This document shows positions 4,116 to 36,649 of a DNA stretch of 36,649 bases, one piece after another. The notes beneath the pieces were generated by a model, which saw only the letters and a list, made by a program, of their open reading frames with translations, was not told the origin of the DNA and did not search any database. Position 1 is the first letter of the stretch; the number at the start of each line of letters is the position of its first letter. The position numbers and the translations under genes are program-made. The stretch is from a virus, in IMG/VR virus record IMGVR_UViG_3300033148_002321, positions 1 through 36,649 of that record, one strand, 5' to 3'.

Positions 4116-4649
4116 ATGAAGCGAATCTTTCTGTACGTTGCCTTGTTCGCCCTAGCGGCCGTGTGTGCTATGATTTGGGGGATTCAATCCCTGGCAGCCC
4201 AGGCCCCGACGCCAGTGGCCGAGCGGTGGAACGAGACCGGCCCCCAGCCGACGCCGGCCAGTCCGTTCGCGGCCCTGGGGCGATTCTCCCGTGCCGACCG
4301 CAAGATGGCCCGGGAGGTCATGCGAGACGCTGCCGATGCGATGGGCGAATCTCGCCGCGAATTCATGCGGGGGGTGATGACCGAGAAGGCCGCCGATTAC
4401 AAGGGTTCAACGCCGCATCTTGACGAGCTTGAGACATCGCTGGCCTTACATGATGACGCCCCGGGTTTCGACATTGACGAGTTTGCCCGCATCCTGGATA
4501 TGATAATCGAGTTCATCAAAAAGCTCATGGCCATATTCGGGATGTTCGCCCTCGACACGGCACCTGCCCTTGACGCTTCGGTGGTGGCGTTCGCTCCGGT
4601 TGACGTGCCGGCGGTCGCGGCGGTCCCTTTCCTGTCCACCGCAGCATAA
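4116..4649 (+). CDS. exported or membrane-anchored hypothetical protein
   Basis: A 177-residue protein. Residues 1-32 (MKRIFLYVALFALAAVCAMI... ending SLAAQA) form a signal peptide or single N-terminal membrane anchor. A Pro-rich linker follows, then a charged helical part (RADRKMAREVMRDAAD) and a hydrophobic C-terminal half with an amphipathic helix near IIEFIKKLMAIFGMF and an Ala/Val/Pro-rich tail. No family is recognised. GAGG lies 7-10 bases before ATG 4116. First gene of the operon expressed from the 3987 promoter and 12 bases upstream of another exported protein, so the pair may act in the envelope. Confidence 0.65.
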   Translation: MKRIFLYVALFALAAVCAMIWGIQSLAAQAPTPVAERWNETGPQPTPASPFAALGRFSRADRKMAREVMRDAADAMGESRREFMRGVMTEKAADYKGSTPHLDELETSLALHDDAPGFDIDEFARILDMIIEFIKKLMAIFGMFALDTAPALDASVVAFAPVDVPAVAAVPFLSTAA

Positions 4650-4661
4650 GGAGCAACGGCC

Positions 4662-5333
4662 ATGAAACGACTCATCTGGTTGTGGTTTCTGCTATTGTGG
4701 CTGCCAACGGTAGCATGGGGTCAGACGCTCGCGATCCAGGTCCCCGAGACCTCCCCTCCGTACACGCTCATCGACGCGGCAGCGACACCGGGGCACAACT
4801 CGTATCTCTGGAAAGTCACCCAGCCGGGCGGCCAGCGGTCACAGCAGATTCGGCGGACCGGCCCACACGGCAACGAGATTTGTTTCACGGGTCCGCCGGG
4901 GCGGTATCTGATCGAAGTGATAAGCACGTCGGGCGATTGCCAGTTGATGGAGGCGTACACGCATACGACGATTACCGGGGAGGGCCCCCAGCCGGACCCT
5001 TCGCCGGACCCGCCGCCGATCGAGGACGTGGCGGCGGTGGTGATAGTGAGGGAGTCGAGCACGCAGACGCCGGCGATAGCTCGGATGCTGCTGTCGATGG
5101 AGTGGCGGAAGTACCTCGATGGCCTGTCGATACCGTGGAAGATTCGGGACCCGGATGTAACCGACCAGACGGGCAGTGTACCGTCCGACCTGAAAGAACC
5201 GTTTCGGGCCGCGAAGCTGACGCAAGGCCCCGACGTGTGTTTTATTGGTTTAGATGGAGGCGTTAAATGCGTGCCGCTGCCGAACACGGCTGCCGCGTTG
5301 CTGGAGTTGCTGAAGGGGAGGGTGCCGCCATGA
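4662..5333 (+). CDS. secreted two-domain protein (Ig/PKD-like plus thioredoxin-like domain)
   Basis: A 223-residue protein with a clear signal peptide (LIWLWFLLLWLPTVAWG, cleavage before Q). Residues ~25-105 alternate short strands (PGHNSYLWKV, PPGRYLIEVIS) like a PKD or Ig-like beta-sandwich. A PDPSPDPPP linker follows. Residues ~125-223 (VVIVRESSTQTP..., IPWKIRDPDV, DVCFIGLDGG, then a C-terminal helix) have the beta-alpha-beta order of a thioredoxin-like fold but no CxxC. From memory, similar modules occur in Planctomycetota proteins and phages; this is the main host hint. AAGGAG lies 8 bases before the ATG. Role unknown; envelope interaction or superinfection interference are guesses. Confidence 0.65.
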   Translation: MKRLIWLWFLLLWLPTVAWGQTLAIQVPETSPPYTLIDAAATPGHNSYLWKVTQPGGQRSQQIRRTGPHGNEICFTGPPGRYLIEVISTSGDCQLMEAYTHTTITGEGPQPDPSPDPPPIEDVAAVVIVRESSTQTPAIARMLLSMEWRKYLDGLSIPWKIRDPDVTDQTGSVPSDLKEPFRAAKLTQGPDVCFIGLDGGVKCVPLPNTAAALLELLKGRVPP

Positions 5334-26766: not shown

Positions 26767-27141
26767 ATGGCAGTTATCAACGCTGCATTCGGCACAATGA
26801 CAATCGACGATGTGGAGGTGTTGGAAATTACCAACATCGAAGCGAACGTCTACGCGGCCGCAGACGAGTATCACACAAACAACACGAGCGGTGGGACGAA
26901 ATCCACGATGGGCGTCAAACGACACGACGGCTCATTTCAGATTGCGGATCACCCGAGCGTTGACGAAGGGGACGCGGTGACTATTCAGGCCGACACCGGG
27001 CAGGACGTATGGGTCCTGCCGGTGCGCATCACTCAGATCGCAGCCCCCATTCCGATCGGCGACGGCGGCACGATGATCTATACTGTGAGCTTTGCCCCGA
27101 ACGGAGTGGCCGTCAAGGCACTCGCATCCGATTCAGTGTAG
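26767..27141 (+). CDS. major tail tube protein candidate
   Basis: ATG 26767 with an excellent AAAGGAGG, as expected for an abundant protein. The 124-residue product is beta-rich (AVINAAFGTMTIDDVEVLEI, KRHDGSFQIADHPS, GTMIYTVSFAPNGVAVK) and lies directly before the G/GT chaperone genes and tape measure gene, the canonical location of the tail tube subunit. No specific motif; identification by position, expression signal and fold pattern. Confidence 0.68.
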   Translation: MAVINAAFGTMTIDDVEVLEITNIEANVYAAADEYHTNNTSGGTKSTMGVKRHDGSFQIADHPSVDEGDAVTIQADTGQDVWVLPVRITQIAAPIPIGDGGTMIYTVSFAPNGVAVKALASDSV

Positions 27142-27150
27142 GGAGATCCG

Positions 27151-27693
27151 ATGCCAACCTTGCGTGAGCTATTCGCACTCGATGAGACGATCACGATTGC
27201 CGGGGTCGAGTACCACTTGACGCAACTCCGCGGCCGCGACCAGGGCATGATCGATGAGCGGATCAAGCGTGGACGACGCGATCCGGCGGCTGCGGTGCGC
27301 GAACTTGCGTCATTGATGACGCCCGACGAGCGGAAGCACTACTTTGACCAGGTGATCGACCAGGCGTGGTGTACGCAAGAGCCGACGGTCCGCGAGCGGG
27401 CGGAGTTTCAGGAGACATTCGTTGGCATGGCGTTCTGCTTTTGGTTGTCGTTACGCCGCCACCATCCGGACGTGACCGAAGACGAGGCGGCCGACCTTCT
27501 GTCCGAGTTCGGGATTGAGTCGATGCAAGAGATGATCGACAAGGTTAAGGCCCGTTATCCGGATGCGACGGATGAACAGATATTGGAGGCGGCCGGGGGC
27601 GTGGAGACGGGGGCGATGAAGGAAATCATCGACCGCATGTCCGGGCTGCCGGTGGGAAATGGGCCTCCCCCGGCGGACGAGCCGGGGACATAG
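27151..27693 (+). CDS. tail assembly chaperone (gpG-like)
   Basis: A 180-residue helical protein (MPTLRELFALDETITIAGVE..., with RDQGMIDERIKRGRRD and FCFWLSLRRHH). It lies between the tail tube and tape measure genes, the place of the lambda G chaperone, which coats the tape measure and recruits tube subunits. GGGAG precedes ATG 27151. Near its end is a GGGAAAT slippery site, and the frame that continues after a -1 shift is open through 27902. This entry is the unshifted product. Confidence 0.78.
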   Translation: MPTLRELFALDETITIAGVEYHLTQLRGRDQGMIDERIKRGRRDPAAAVRELASLMTPDERKHYFDQVIDQAWCTQEPTVRERAEFQETFVGMAFCFWLSLRRHHPDVTEDEAADLLSEFGIESMQEMIDKVKARYPDATDEQILEAAGGVETGAMKEIIDRMSGLPVGNGPPPADEPGT

Positions 27694-27902
27694 ACCAGCC
27701 CATCGCATGGCAGATGATGGTTCACGCACTTGTCGAGAAGGGTCACGACTATGAAACGATTGCAAGCTGGACGGTTGCGCAGATGCTATGGGCATTGACG
27801 AAACAAGTAATGAACGTCGGCGAAGCTGCAAAGTACAAGGCCATGATTGAGCGAAAGAAACAGGCGTGGATGGAGCGGGAGCTAGAACGCTATGGCGGCT
27901 AA
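27151..27902 (+). CDS. tail assembly chaperone fusion (gpGT-like) made by -1 frameshift
   Basis: If ribosomes slip back one base at 27654-27660, translation leaves the gpG frame after Asn170, reads Trp-Ala-Ser, and continues through AWQMMVHALVEKGHDYETIA and WALTKQVMNVGEAAKY to TAA at 27900-27902. The fusion is about 250 residues, of which 80 come from the -1 frame. The T part has no start with a ribosome site of its own, as in other phages. The stop overlaps the tape measure start by 11 bases. Lambda uses GGGAAAG in the same place. Frameshift efficiency cannot be judged from sequence. Confidence 0.8.
27654..27660 (+). promoter_or_regulatory. slippery heptamer for -1 programmed frameshift
   Basis: GGGAAAT sits in the gpG frame as G-GGA-AAT, a perfect X-XXY-YYZ site. 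Ten codons of the unshifted frame remain before its stop. The -1 frame is open on both sides of the site. Confidence 0.82.
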
Positions 27903-29781
27903 CTCGTTTGCATTGGCGGAAGCCTACCTCGAAATTAAGGAACGTGGTGCCAGCAAGGCCGATGCCACCATAGGGAAACTCCGTAAGCAGACCGAGATGC
28001 TGCAAGAGGGGTTCAACCGGGCTGCCGTACATGCCCGGCGTCTATTCGTTGTCGGTGCGGTTGCTGCCGCCGGGTTCGTTCACGCAGCCGCAAATGCGGA
28101 AGAGGTTACCAGTAAGTTCAATGCGGTATTCAAGGACCAGACGGTTGCCGCCCGTAAATGGTCGGACGATTTCGCGAAGTCGCTCAATCGCTCCCGGTTC
28201 TCGGTTGAACGGTACATGTCTTCTTTTCAGGACACATTCGTGCCGATGGGCTTTGCCCGAACGGAGGCCACCGAGCTATCCAAGCAGCTTACCCGGTTGA
28301 CGCTTGACTTATCGTCATTCAATAACGTGGATGCGGGCGAGGCCGCACAACTTCTGACATCGGCACTAGTTGGCAACCATGAGGCGGTACGACGGTTCGG
28401 TGTCATCATCACAGAAGCGACACTGGAGCAAGAGTTGTTCCGTATGGGCATCAAGGGAGGCACTCGCGCAGCCAGTGAACTACAAAAGGTGCAAGCCCGA
28501 CTGAACCTCGTGATGCAGATGACAACGGATGCCCAGGGTGATGCTGCCCGCACTGCCAACTCCACGGCCAACCAGATCAAGGCGTTGAGGGATCAGTTTT
28601 TCGATATGTCCGTGGAGGTAGGTAATTCGCTTATCCCCGTGGCAAAGCAACTGCTGCCGGTACTAATGGATTGGGCAAAGTGGGTAGGGAAGATTGCACA
28701 AGAGTACAGCGACAGCATTCCAACGATCACCAAGTGGACGGCTGGAATCACGGCGTCACTGGTTGTAATCCCACAAGCTGCCAAGGCGGTCCGCGGTTTG
28801 GCGGCGGCCATGGAGTTATTGGGCGTCGCAACGAAGGGCGCGACGATTGCATTCATGGGCAAGGCGGGCCTGGTTATTGCCCTCGGTTGGGCTGCTTTCA
28901 CGATCGGGAAAGAAATCGGGAAAGCGCTCGCGGACCTCGTATATGGCGAGAAGGAGGCGACGAAGGCCGCCAAGGAATTCAACGCTGCCCTGCTCGCACA
29001 AAAGAACCGGGCCGAACGGGTAGCGGCTGCGTTAGAGAAGGCGAAGGCACACGGAGCGAAGTTCACGGCAATGGCGGAGAAGGGCAAGGGTTTGATTAAG
29101 CCCAAGGCTGAGGAGCCGAAGTTTGAGAAGAAGGAGACGGCAGAGGCATCGCGTATACTGGGTCGACTCGTTGCACGCGAGGAACAGTTACGGGAGCGGG
29201 CGGGGGCTGCCGGAAGAGCATTTACGGAAGGCAGAGTATCAAAGGAAACCGCATTGGCAGCGAGTGCCGAGTGGCAGGCTGCCAAGGCCGCGGCGGATGA
29301 TCTCGGAAAAGCTATCGCCGATGCGCAGACTGAGTGGATGAGCGCCGTGCGGCAAGAGGAAGAGAAGGCACGGCGGAAGCGGCGAGAAGAGCTAGACAAG
29401 GAGGGTGAATCGTTGCGGCTGGCGGTACGGAAGCCGATGGAAGAGTTTCAGGACCGGCTCAATCGGCTCAAGCTATTGCTCGCAGAGGGCGCCATTACGC
29501 AAGAGACGTTCAACCGTGCAGAGGCATTGGCCAAGGCGAAGATGAAGGGGCCGGTGCAAGCGGCGGCGGCGGCCGATCCCCGCAGCTTCCCTGGCATGGC
29601 AAACCTCGGGTTCTCTGCCGTCCAATCTCACGTCCAGTCGATCGTCGATCAGCAACGCCGCAAGATGGAAGAGGCTGCAACCAAGACGGCGAAGAACACG
29701 GCCGGCATAGAGAAGGCAACCATCGGGATGCTGGGCGTGATGACTTCCGGAACGATGAAAGTGCAAGCGGGGTACGTGTGA
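27892..29781 (+). CDS. tail tape measure protein
   Basis: A 629-residue, mostly helical protein after the chaperone pair. The N-terminal third has the family's VTSKFNAVFKDQ...LSSFNNVDAGEAAQLLTSAL and VGNHEAVRRFGVIITEATLE. Hydrophobic segments at ~285-345 (ITASLVVIPQAAKAVRGL, AGLVIALGWAAFTIGKEI) may insert into the host membrane on injection. The C-terminal part is Ala/Glu/Lys coiled coil. At about 1.5 angstrom per residue its length predicts a tail near 90-100 nm (rule of thumb). The start overlaps the GT frame. Confidence 0.88.
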   Translation: MAANSFALAEAYLEIKERGASKADATIGKLRKQTEMLQEGFNRAAVHARRLFVVGAVAAAGFVHAAANAEEVTSKFNAVFKDQTVAARKWSDDFAKSLNRSRFSVERYMSSFQDTFVPMGFARTEATELSKQLTRLTLDLSSFNNVDAGEAAQLLTSALVGNHEAVRRFGVIITEATLEQELFRMGIKGGTRAASELQKVQARLNLVMQMTTDAQGDAARTANSTANQIKALRDQFFDMSVEVGNSLIPVAKQLLPVLMDWAKWVGKIAQEYSDSIPTITKWTAGITASLVVIPQAAKAVRGLAAAMELLGVATKGATIAFMGKAGLVIALGWAAFTIGKEIGKALADLVYGEKEATKAAKEFNAALLAQKNRAERVAAALEKAKAHGAKFTAMAEKGKGLIKPKAEEPKFEKKETAEASRILGRLVAREEQLRERAGAAGRAFTEGRVSKETALAASAEWQAAKAAADDLGKAIADAQTEWMSAVRQEEEKARRKRREELDKEGESLRLAVRKPMEEFQDRLNRLKLLLAEGAITQETFNRAEALAKAKMKGPVQAAAAADPRSFPGMANLGFSAVQSHVQSIVDQQRRKMEEAATKTAKNTAGIEKATIGMLGVMTSGTMKVQAGYV

Positions 29782-31744: not shown

Positions 31745-32782
31745 ATGGACACGGTATTCGTCTTCGGCTACCCCCGTAGCATCGGGGGTGCCAATGTGGA
31801 GTTGTGGTCCACGCTCCGCCTCTGGCGACGTTATGGCCTCTCTGTGACGTGTGTCCCCACGCGAGAATACGAGCCTGACTGGCGTGATCGGCTTGACGGA
31901 ATCGGGGTCCGGACGCTGGAAATCGAACCGGATCAGCTTGCCGATGCCACCGAACTGCAGGGGGCCGTAGTCTTCGGATCGTGCAATCATTATCTGATTG
32001 AGTACGCCCCGATTCTCCGCCGGCTCGGCTGTAAGCTCGTGTGGCAAAATTGCATGGGATGGATTCTGCCGCAAGCCCGTCTTGACCACCACGCGAACGG
32101 CTGCTTTGACCGCTACGTATTCCATTGCCGGTATCAGGCCGACCAGCTCACCCCGCAGTTGAAGAAATGGGGCTACACGGATCGGCAAGGGTTCGTCATC
32201 CCCGGGGCATTCGAGCCGTCTGATTTCGCGTTCAACCCATTGCCCCACCTGCAAGACGAGATGTTCATGGTCGGCCGGATCAGCCGGGCGGCGGAGGACA
32301 AGTTCACCACCGAACTCTGGCGGCAGTATATGCAAGTGCCCCACGTAGTAGGTGCCGAGATTCTCGGTTGGCGACGTGAGTTGCAATGGCGGTGCGGCCC
32401 GATGCCCGCATGGGCACACGGTTACGAACCGGGTAGCATGACTCCGCAAGCATTGCTCGCCTCACTCCATTGCTACTGTCCTGGCTATGGTGCTCCGTCG
32501 GCCGAGAACTGGCCCCGTGTCGGCCTGGAGGCGATGGCTGCCGGCGTGCCCTTGGTTGTCGAGAACCGTGGCGGCTGGCCTGAGATGGTAGACAACGGCC
32601 GCACGGGCTACGTGTGCCGCAACCACTGGGAAATGTCGTACCGGATTGGGCACCTCGCGTACAATGAAGACATGCGGCTGGCGATGGCGCAAGAGGCACG
32701 GGCAGACGTGGAACAACGGCTGGCCTGCCCGGATCGTATCTGGGCGGGGTGGAAACGAGTGTTTGATAGTTTGGAGCCATAG
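31745..32782 (+). CDS. glycosyltransferase, GT-B fold (GT1/GT4-like)
   Basis: A 345-residue enzyme that would transfer a sugar from an activated donor to an unknown acceptor. The N-terminal domain starts DTVFVFGYPRSIGGANVELW (Rossmann-like strand and Gly loop). The C-terminal domain has the donor-binding signature ENWPRVGLEAMAAGVPLV and GGWPEMVDNGRTGYV at ~253-290, typical of GT-B families. No membrane segment. It is the first gene after the 31697 promoter and the first of a cluster containing two other glycosyltransferases and three methyltransferases. Confidence 0.85.
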   Translation: MDTVFVFGYPRSIGGANVELWSTLRLWRRYGLSVTCVPTREYEPDWRDRLDGIGVRTLEIEPDQLADATELQGAVVFGSCNHYLIEYAPILRRLGCKLVWQNCMGWILPQARLDHHANGCFDRYVFHCRYQADQLTPQLKKWGYTDRQGFVIPGAFEPSDFAFNPLPHLQDEMFMVGRISRAAEDKFTTELWRQYMQVPHVVGAEILGWRRELQWRCGPMPAWAHGYEPGSMTPQALLASLHCYCPGYGAPSAENWPRVGLEAMAAGVPLVVENRGGWPEMVDNGRTGYVCRNHWEMSYRIGHLAYNEDMRLAMAQEARADVEQRLACPDRIWAGWKRVFDSLEP

Positions 32783-33003: not shown

Positions 33004-33608
33004 GCGGACTCGATACACTACGCGAACGCTATCCCTGGCCAGCCGAACGGCCCGAGGGCTTGCCCGGCTGTATGGGCTGGTGTGCCGGCGAGAACCGTTC
33101 GGCATTCACGTCGCTGCTGAATGCCGAAACGCAAGTGGTACTTGAGCTTGGTTCCTTCGAGGGTCTATCATCGGGCTTGCTTTGCGAGGCGGCACCGAAC
33201 GCAACGATCCTTTGCGTCGACCACTGGAAGGGCAGCGCGGAGCACCACAAGCGTCCGCATTGGAACGAACGCTTGGCGAAGCTCTATGACAGCTTCCTAA
33301 TGCATCTCTGGGAGCACCGTGACCGTGTGGTGCCGATGCGAACGAGCACGCTAGAAGGGATGCGTGAGATATCTGCACTCGGGATCAAGCCTGACCTTGT
33401 ATACGTTGATGCTTCGCATGATGAGGAGAGCGTATTTCAGGACACGACAACCGCTCTCCAGCTCTTTCGTGAATCTATCATCATTGGTGACGACTGGACG
33501 AAGCAGAGTGTGCGAATGGGGGCCGTGCGTGCAGCGTGCAGGTGTTCGTATTTCAAGGTATTCGGCTGCTGTTGCTGGCATATTCCAGTAGAGGGGAGGA
33601 AGTATTGA
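33000..33608 (+). CDS. class I SAM methyltransferase (Methyltransf_24-like)
   Basis: A 202-residue protein with the class I SAM fold: VVLELGSFEGLSSGL at ~46-60 (motif I), LCVDHWKG at ~72 (motif II), DLVYVDASHDEESVFQD at ~130 (motif IV region) and SIIIGDDWT. The E-x-G-x-x-x-G-x-S...V-D-x-S-H pattern is typical of Methyltransf_24 enzymes, which often act on glycans or secondary metabolites. The C-terminus is Cys-rich (ACRCSYFKVFGCCCWHI), unusual for the family. ATGA coupling upstream; its stop overlaps a TTG start downstream. Confidence 0.75.
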   Translation: MSGLDTLRERYPWPAERPEGLPGCMGWCAGENRSAFTSLLNAETQVVLELGSFEGLSSGLLCEAAPNATILCVDHWKGSAEHHKRPHWNERLAKLYDSFLMHLWEHRDRVVPMRTSTLEGMREISALGIKPDLVYVDASHDEESVFQDTTTALQLFRESIIIGDDWTKQSVRMGAVRAACRCSYFKVFGCCCWHIPVEGRKY

Positions 33609-34636
33609 AAGTTCTCTTCCTCCACAATCACCCGCTCTTCCCCGGCCCGATCCTGCGGAGTATCGCGGCCCTGCGAGAGCACAACATCGAATTGCGGACC
33701 GAGAAAGCGGCTTGGATGCAAGACGTTCGCATTCACCGGGAATGGGACTACGATGTGCTACTGTTGCAAGAGCCGCCGATTGACGAGCGGTTTGTGACGT
33801 GCGGCCGTCCAGTGATCTTAATGGAGCGGGTAGACGGTGCCCAACTACGAATGTGCCGTCGCTACCTCTGTCGGGTTGCTGGCGTCATCAAGGGCTATGT
33901 ATTCAAGGATCGCTGGCAGTACAACCGCGTGAATGACAGGGCTCATATCGCACTACTCCACAAGGCCGGCGTCAAGTGCGAGGCCCCGTTGTACCGGGCA
34001 CCGCTGCCGCGACCGCAACTATCAATGCCCCAGTTGCAGACGTTGCACGTCGGCTACGGATTTGGAGCCCTTGACCACTTGGAGCCATGCGTCAAGGCTA
34101 ACGTAGACTTCGACACCGCACGGCCAATCGACGTGTGCTATGCCGGGACGGTCGAGTATCTTGACCCGGATGGCAAGACGACTGAGGTAGACACGCACCG
34201 CAAACTGGCATTGAAGGCGGTAGACGAGTGGGGCCGCCGGGGTCGTGTCATAGCAAGTCCCGGCCGGCAGATTCCCGGACCGGAGTACCGGCAACGGTTG
34301 CTCGAAAGCAAGGTCGCCCTTTGTCCGTGGGGGTGGGGTGAAGCGACCTACCGCGAATACGAGGCGATGGCGCTGGGCACCGTGGTCATCAAGCCGGCCA
34401 CGCCGCATGTCGATTGCTGGCCGCAGATTTACAAGCCGGGCGAGTTGTACGTTCCGTGTATGCCGGACTTCTCGGACGCCCCTGACGTGATCGAACACGT
34501 CCTGGATTCGTGGGACGATTACCGGGCAACGCGGGAACGGGCTCGCAAGTTGATCGTGGATGCCTGGCAGCCGGCGGCGATTGCCGGCTGGATGGCGTCG
34601 CGGATCTATACTATCATGGGTGGCGACATCGAATGA
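33605..34636 (+). CDS. glycosyltransferase, GT-B fold (CgeB/Glyco_trans_1_2-like)
   Basis: I choose TTG 33605, which overlaps the preceding stop and follows GGGGAGG, giving KVLFLHNHPLFPGPILRSIA as a canonical first strand. The 343-residue protein ends with ESKVALCPWGWGEATYREYE, AMALGTVVIKPATPHVDCWP and IYKPGELYVPCMPDFSD, a pattern of the Glyco_trans_1_2 family. It likely transfers a sugar to an unknown acceptor. It is coupled on both sides (TTGA, ATGA) to methyltransferases. Confidence 0.78.
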   Translation: MKVLFLHNHPLFPGPILRSIAALREHNIELRTEKAAWMQDVRIHREWDYDVLLLQEPPIDERFVTCGRPVILMERVDGAQLRMCRRYLCRVAGVIKGYVFKDRWQYNRVNDRAHIALLHKAGVKCEAPLYRAPLPRPQLSMPQLQTLHVGYGFGALDHLEPCVKANVDFDTARPIDVCYAGTVEYLDPDGKTTEVDTHRKLALKAVDEWGRRGRVIASPGRQIPGPEYRQRLLESKVALCPWGWGEATYREYEAMALGTVVIKPATPHVDCWPQIYKPGELYVPCMPDFSDAPDVIEHVLDSWDDYRATRERARKLIVDAWQPAAIAGWMASRIYTIMGGDIE

Positions 34637-35214: not shown

Positions 35215-35873
35215 TTTCACCCGAACAGGAACACGCTCTCGCTTCGCTTTGGTACGATCACCAACACGATCCCATGGCAAAGTTTTGCAACCACGTCCAG
35301 CACTGGGACGACGAGGCCCGGAAGATTGCGAAGGGGCTCGGCCTGGACACTGGCCCGCCGCAGAGGATCGTCGATCTCGGCTGCGGGTTCGGCTACTTCA
35401 TTCGCATCTGCCGTGAATGGGGACACAACGCGATCGGGGTCGACAGGCCGAACCCATTGATCGACAATGCGACGACGGTGCTTGAAGTGCCTTGCGTGCT
35501 ACACGAGATCCATGAATATGAACCGTTGCCGGAGTCGATCTGCGACTGCGACTTAGTGACCACGTTCGGCGTGAACTTTCGTCTTGGGGGACGATCCGCA
35601 TACTGGCACACGCTGGAGTATGACTACCTACTCGCCGGTATAATGTGCCGGCTGGTGGCTGGTGGTAGTTGGATACTCCGACCAAATCAGACTACTGAGC
35701 CGGGCTCAATAGCTAACTTGCTAGATCCTGAATGGTGGGGTAGGGTGTGCGACGGGGCGTATCCCATCCAGGTGAATAACGGCCAAGTGACCATCACAAA
35801 CACAAGGGACCAAACCAATGGCAACGATCGACGTGTGCATACCGACGTGGCCGAACCATCCAAAACGGCTTGA
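35211..35873 (+). CDS. class I SAM methyltransferase (220 aa)
   Basis: Motif I RIVDLGCGFGYFIRI near ~52-66, then AIGVDRPNP at ~76, and DCDLVTTFGVNFRLGG near ~112-127 where the acceptor-side motif lies. It ends in a Gln/Asn-rich tail that overlaps the next gene by 56 bases. No DNA methylase NPPY/DPPY motif is present. Third non-DNA-type methyltransferase in the cluster; likely substrate is a glycan or small molecule, by context only. Confidence 0.75.
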   Translation: MISPEQEHALASLWYDHQHDPMAKFCNHVQHWDDEARKIAKGLGLDTGPPQRIVDLGCGFGYFIRICREWGHNAIGVDRPNPLIDNATTVLEVPCVLHEIHEYEPLPESICDCDLVTTFGVNFRLGGRSAYWHTLEYDYLLAGIMCRLVAGGSWILRPNQTTEPGSIANLLDPEWWGRVCDGAYPIQVNNGQVTITNTRDQTNGNDRRVHTDVAEPSKTA

Positions 35874-36513
35874 CTACCTACGGCAGATTGTCGAGGCGGT
35901 GGAGGGCAAGCTGGAGGCAACGGGGCATGAGCTACGGCTGTACTGCTCATCGGAAACGGAAACCGACCCCAAGGCAACGTGGCACGCGGCGGAGTTAGCG
36001 GCGTTGTGTGCCGAGCATTCCATCCCGCTCAACTGGCGCGGCATCCCGGCGAATACGGGCGGCAACATGAACGCCTCGATGGAAATGGGCACGGGTGAGT
36101 ATATCTTCCTGCAGCAAGACGACTGGCGACTTGAATATCCACTGGACCTTGCGGCCGGCGTGGCGTTGATGGAAGCCCACCCCGAGGTTGACATGGTCCG
36201 CTACAACTACCCGCTGGGACCGACCATGATGCCGACGTTCACGCCGGGGCCGAACGGCTGGCAGAGGATCGACGTGCGAGGCCGCTGGCCATACGGTGAC
36301 GACCCGCACTTGCGGCGTCGTTCGTTCATGGACCGATGGGGATGGTACTACGACGGCGGCCTACACGGCACGGCATCAGCGAACTTAATGCAAAAGCTCG
36401 TCAAGGGAAACGCTTTCATTGTGGCGACGGACATGCCATACTTTCAACACATCGGGTATGCGTCGGCCGTGCTTGGCGACGTGCGGGCTGGACAGGCCCG
36501 GAGGTACGAATGA
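35818..36513 (+). CDS. glycosyltransferase, GT-A fold (family 2-like)
   Basis: A 231-residue protein starting ATIDVCIPTWPNHPKRLDYL, the first strand of a GT-A fold, with NTGGNMNASMEMGTGEYIFL and QQDDW near ~98-103, where DDW provides the metal-binding DxD-like motif. Shorter than typical GT2 enzymes (250-330 aa). No membrane helices. AGGGA lies before ATG 35818. It complements two GT-B enzymes in the cluster, suggesting assembly of a short oligosaccharide or several independent transfers. Confidence 0.75.
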   Translation: MATIDVCIPTWPNHPKRLDYLRQIVEAVEGKLEATGHELRLYCSSETETDPKATWHAAELAALCAEHSIPLNWRGIPANTGGNMNASMEMGTGEYIFLQQDDWRLEYPLDLAAGVALMEAHPEVDMVRYNYPLGPTMMPTFTPGPNGWQRIDVRGRWPYGDDPHLRRRSFMDRWGWYYDGGLHGTASANLMQKLVKGNAFIVATDMPYFQHIGYASAVLGDVRAGQARRYE

Positions 36514-36649
36514 TGAGCGAGCTAGGGCAACGCATCGCCGCACAAGCAGAGCAGTCCTTGCCACGGTTCCGAGAGCGTGTCCTGCCGATCGACTGGTGCC
36601 CGCGTGGGATCTTGACGAGCGAAGGGTTCGCGTTCTGTACGATGTGCGA
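36510..36649 (+). CDS. 5' end of an unidentified gene, partial
   Basis: ATG 36510 overlaps the preceding stop (ATGATG; ATG 36513 also possible). 46 codons are visible before the window ends: MMSELGQRIAAQAEQSLPRF, then a Cys-containing segment (PIDWCPRGILTSEGFAFCTM). The visible part is an amphipathic helix followed by strand-like sequence; there is too little to name a family. Translational coupling suggests it belongs to the glycosyltransferase/methyltransferase cluster. Confidence 0.6.
   Translation, partial: MMSELGQRIAAQAEQSLPRFRERVLPIDWCPRGILTSEGFAFCTMC

Follow-up and report, generated by a model that had tools for sequence, protein, structure and literature searches.

Two overlapping frames between the tail genes

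The window analyzed here is the complete IMG/VR virus record IMGVR_UViG_3300033148_002321, 36,649 nucleotides (nt) from an uncultivated tailed phage. It contains a pair of overlapping reading frames, here called G and T, that very probably are tail assembly chaperone genes joined by a lambda-type -1 programmed ribosomal frameshift. As in lambda, the two frames lie between the major tail protein and tape measure genes, with T in the -1 frame of G. The closest relative found, IMGVR_UViG_3300033155_000884 (L004 in the following), was reached via its tape measure protein. The features of the locus, all on the + strand, are:

26767..27141, +, probable major tail protein, with weak matches to phrog_365 (tail protein) and phrog_2491 (major tail protein) and a homologue at the same place in L004
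27151..27693, +, G-like tail assembly chaperone open reading frame (ORF) of 180 amino acids (aa), the zero frame, with a good Shine-Dalgarno sequence, flanked by the genes for the probable major tail protein and the tape measure
27654..27660, +, slippery heptamer G_GGA_AAT in the phase of G, aligned with an in-phase GGGAAAC of L004
27660..27902, +, T-like -1 frame extension, 80 aa after the shift (WASPGGRAGDIDQPIAW...ERYGG), open throughout and with a homologue in the -1 frame of L004
27661..27667, +, spacer of 7 nt, identical in length in L004
27668..27687, +, putative stimulatory hairpin with seven G-C pairs, CCCCGGC / GGACGA loop / GCCGGGG, from folding and the L004 counterpart
27714..27902, +, ORF that a gene caller would list as an isolated 62-aa gene, without a Shine-Dalgarno sequence and starting 3' of a conserved G..PI.W motif
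27892..29781, +, tail tape measure protein of 629 aa, matching phrog_1535 (tail length tape measure, E 2e-20) and, by tblastn, annotated tape measure proteins

An earlier note on this DNA had read the locus as a lambda-type G/GT pair, and its reading of the heptamer agrees with the codons found. GTG at 27652, GGA at 27655 and AAT at 27658 place GGGAAAT in the phase G-GGA-AAT, which gives G an X_XXY_YYZ heptamer close to its 3' end, ten sense codons ahead of the stop (TAG at 27691). The reading frames likewise yield Asn170-Trp171 as the junction that had been proposed. After the heptamer the -1 frame reads GGG AAA TGG GCC and continues until the stop at 27900-27902. It is thus open to 27902 as claimed, but does not end just before the tape measure start, since it overlaps the tape measure ATG at 27892 by 11 nt.

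The heptamer by itself is only moderately improbable. When synonymous codons were drawn at the usage of the window, an in-phase XXXYYYN appeared within the last 30 codons in 6% of the draws and GGGAAAN in 5%, and an open -1 frame of 82 codons has p ~0.03 by base composition. GGGAAAN occurs 13 times on the + strand of the window, three times in slippery phase within likely genes, and among these sites only at 27654 does the gene join a downstream frame for which a homologue is known. Judged by sequence comparison with relatives, the signal at 27654 rises far above chance.

Slippery phase is also seen for heptamers elsewhere in the window. A GGGAAAC in ORF 35818-36513 is followed by a -1 frame that is open over 36405-36649, the end of the record (81 codons), a case without family evidence that is probably due to chance. 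A CCCTTTC lies 18 nt ahead of the stop of ORF 4116-4649 and opens into a long -1 frame, 4625-5266, which is probably incidental because the overlapping ORF 4662-5333 has a signal-peptide-like start and a good Shine-Dalgarno sequence.

Conservation of the signal in the closest relative

Direct searches of viral contigs and phage records with G or T returned no relative, and further attempts to find close relatives of the pair led to the L004 contig again or to nothing. In L004, G is found at 4251-4862 and shares 32% identity with G of the window over its whole length (BLASTP E 4e-28). The -1 frame of L004 is 31% identical to T (BLASTP E 2e-7) and overlaps the start of its tape measure gene. An in-phase GGGAAAC (G_GGA_AAC) at 4754-4760 aligns with the heptamer of the window at the SGLPxGN codons, so that the alignment with homologues proposed in the earlier note finds both heptamer and frame junction conserved at the same codons. 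The second gene upstream of G (46% identity) is likewise common to the two viruses, as are the tape measure and the probable major tail protein.

The earlier note had missed the GC-rich hairpin that follows the heptamer. In the window as in L004, it occupies exactly positions +8 to +27 after the heptamer. The 32-nt segment of the window has a minimum free energy of -17.4 kcal/mol (z -3.3), and an equally strong stem in that range is found at about 0.9% of the positions in the window. In L004 the stem comprises eight base pairs, GCCCGCCG-GAGA-CGGCGGGC, with z -4.3. Among the seven pairs common to both, two show compensatory double changes between window and L004, +8/+27 from C-G to G-C and +13/+22 from G-C to C-G. 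Note that the signal depends on the length folded: 80 nt after the heptamer give an unremarkable z of -1.1 in which the hairpin is diluted, whereas a segment of 32-40 nt is significant. We consider a stimulatory role of the hairpin likely, and no more than that because the comparison comprises two sequences.

Loci with related tape measures

The search with the tape measure protein identified 80 viral loci, 50 after removal of redundancy. These were scanned for GGGAAAN or AAAAAAN in slippery phase within the last 100 nt of an upstream ORF, with the -1 frame ending no more than 45 nt from the tape measure start. The test was passed by 33 of the 50 non-redundant loci, and as a control, 286 further ORFs from these loci included a single one that passed a looser criterion. 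GGGAAAC was the commonest heptamer (15 of the 33). L004 itself was scored as a miss, solely for the distance of its heptamer from the G stop (102-108 nt), and otherwise qualifies. Among the scanned -1 frames of such loci, 13 of 15 matched the tail assembly chaperone family Phage_TAC_6 (Pfam PF09550). These environmental viruses (among loci L014-L083) resemble the window in carrying a -1 extension upstream of a related tape measure and in the layout of the T domain. They differ from it in that a hairpin after the heptamer is mostly missing and the T domains are not detectably homologous. As profile comparison of G and T from window and L004 with this group was not significant, the group supports the arrangement and not the protein family. 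A hairpin conserved across the wider group was rejected (mean z -0.4 over 36 sequences).

Other heptamers were encountered in this survey. In L018, L008 and L035, CCCTTTN stands in slippery phase ahead of the tape measure. In Methanoculleus virus L4768 (L086, NC_074642.1; the same match is found in Blf4), an in-phase A_AAA_AAC at 2017-2023, at the end of gp22, connects this gene with a -1 frame (KKPVIEAGRIIAHLCSVYGWTPDYCLDRLSWPQVLM...) extending to the tape measure. As gp23 is annotated to begin well within that frame, the start given for the T gene in this archaeal virus is probably wrong; the word 'frameshift' is absent from the Blf4 paper. In Tetraselmis viridis virus S20 (L087, NC_020840.1), C_CCC_CCG stands in phase at 1854-1860, close to where TVGG_00036 ends, and the gene that follows is in the -1 frame, which makes the heptamer a candidate for an unusual slippery site in a G/GT frameshift.

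In the window, G is preceded by a terminase-like gene (a weak match), a lambda-family portal, a capsid gene, a tail-completion-like protein and the probable major tail protein, and shows weak matches of its own to PHROG families 7947 and 2115, 'tail protein'. With its position after these tail genes and upstream of a phrog_1535 tape measure, the site corresponds to the place of G and T in lambda. Two glycosyltransferase-like ORFs, 31745-32782 and 33536-34636, lie downstream of the tail genes.

Ribosomal frameshifting and its alternatives

Based on layout and phase, on the heptamer, hairpin and homologous frames of L004, on the loci with related tape measures and on the poor prospects for a start at 27714, we assign a probability of roughly 0.93 to programmed -1 frameshifting of the lambda type, by the ribosome, in the G/T chaperone genes, in agreement with the earlier note. 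Most ribosomes would read G to its stop and produce the 180-aa chaperone. In a minority, the tRNA-Gly on GGA and the tRNA-Asn on AAT would slip one base back onto GGG AAA, probably aided by the GC hairpin seven bases downstream, and translation would continue in the -1 frame to yield a G-T fusion protein approximately 250 aa long. If the analogy to lambda holds, the tape measure protein would be bound by the G part and the major tail protein recruited through the T part, in which case the ratio of G to GT would matter for tail assembly.

In lambda, low-level -1 frameshifting yields gpG and gpGT at a ratio of 30:1 that is crucial for tail assembly, and the binding partner is the tape measure for the G part and the major tail subunit for the T part (Levin 1993; Xu 2004, 2013, 2014, as reviewed in PMC5009743). 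The mechanism has been textbook knowledge since that work, and in 3679 SEA-PHAGES genomes PRFect counted 2397 joined tail assembly chaperone genes (PMC10885494). The case of the window is ordinary in kind. It shares with lambda the place between major tail protein and tape measure, the -1 direction, a GGGAAAN near the end of G and a T frame that reaches the start of the tape measure. The likeness is one of layout and signal; no phage record matched G or T of the window. It is distinctive in its AAT A-site codon and, compared to lambda, in the GC hairpin 7 nt downstream of the heptamer. An A-site codon for Asn, as in the window, is also found in two of the g-t frameshifts of the haloarchaeal tailed viruses HCTV-1, -2 and -5, which differ in their archaeal hosts and in using AAC instead of AAT (PMC5009743).

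Several observations weigh against this interpretation. G_GGA_AAG is rated highly shift-prone in E. coli (PMC5009743), whereas the heptamer of the window ends in T, placing AAT (Asn) in the A-site in lieu of the AAG (Lys) of lambda, and no figure for the frameshift efficiency of G_GGA_AAT was found. Neither G nor T of the window matched a Pfam Phage_TAC family above the curated cut-off, and fold searches with their structures gave no match; the AlphaFold model was poor for G and fair for T (predicted local distance difference test values of 54 and 78, respectively). The T frame had no Pfam match and no significant PHROG match of its own. A single close homologue of the G/T pair was found, which limits the conservation of the hairpin to two sequences. 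Finally, L002 and L003, with a related tape measure, have separate G and T genes that overlap by ATGA and contain no heptamer, and the frameshift arrangement is therefore not universal.

The example of these two loci also lends some credit to T (27714-27902) being an independent small gene with its own ATG, perhaps expressed by ribosomes that reinitiate after terminating at the G stop, 21 nt upstream, with the heptamer being incidental. Tandem ATGs at 27714 and 27717 do follow soon after that stop. As the earlier note had stated, however, a good ribosome site is missing: the best anti-Shine-Dalgarno duplex at 27714 reaches -0.9 kcal/mol, compared to a median of -3.0 kcal/mol for random 17-mers and about -4 to -8 kcal/mol for most genes of the window. 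The ATG at 27714 is residue 19 of T. Residues common to window and L004 begin upstream of it (P4, G6, G9, P14, I15 and W17), the conserved G..PI.W motif lies upstream as well, and the first predicted helix begins at residue 17. In L004 the T frame offers no ATG, GTG or TTG ahead of residue 55, so that its complete T cannot come from a start of its own at any common start codon. Together with the conserved in-phase heptamer, this disfavours initiation at 27714, and we regard an independent T gene as highly improbable. On sequence evidence T thus resembles its lambda counterpart in not being independently initiated, and ORF 27714..27902 is most likely only its C-terminal part. Two homologous frames one base apart can always be read in another way, as the outcome of transcriptional slippage, a sequencing error or a recent gene-splitting mutation. 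L004, an independent virus with 32% identity, has its frames split at the very same codons, which argues against such an origin, as does the combination of heptamer and spaced hairpin, a signature of ribosomal frameshifting. Transcriptional slippage usually requires a long homopolymer run, and GGGAAA does not contain one. The chance that the frame change is of non-ribosomal origin appears close to negligible.

Frameshifting on the ribosome thus remains our preferred explanation. We see about even odds that window and L004 represent a small lineage of tailed viruses with a strongly hairpin-stimulated G/GT frameshift, a fixed 7-nt spacer and an Asn A-site codon, unlike most viruses with related tape measures, where no clear structure follows the heptamer. 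For the window itself, the analysis yields a corrected annotation of a gene that would be split or overlooked in gene calling, and a further G/GT pair, unmatched in phage records, that was found from its frameshift signal. Uncultivated viruses with this kind of tape measure commonly carry the same signal.
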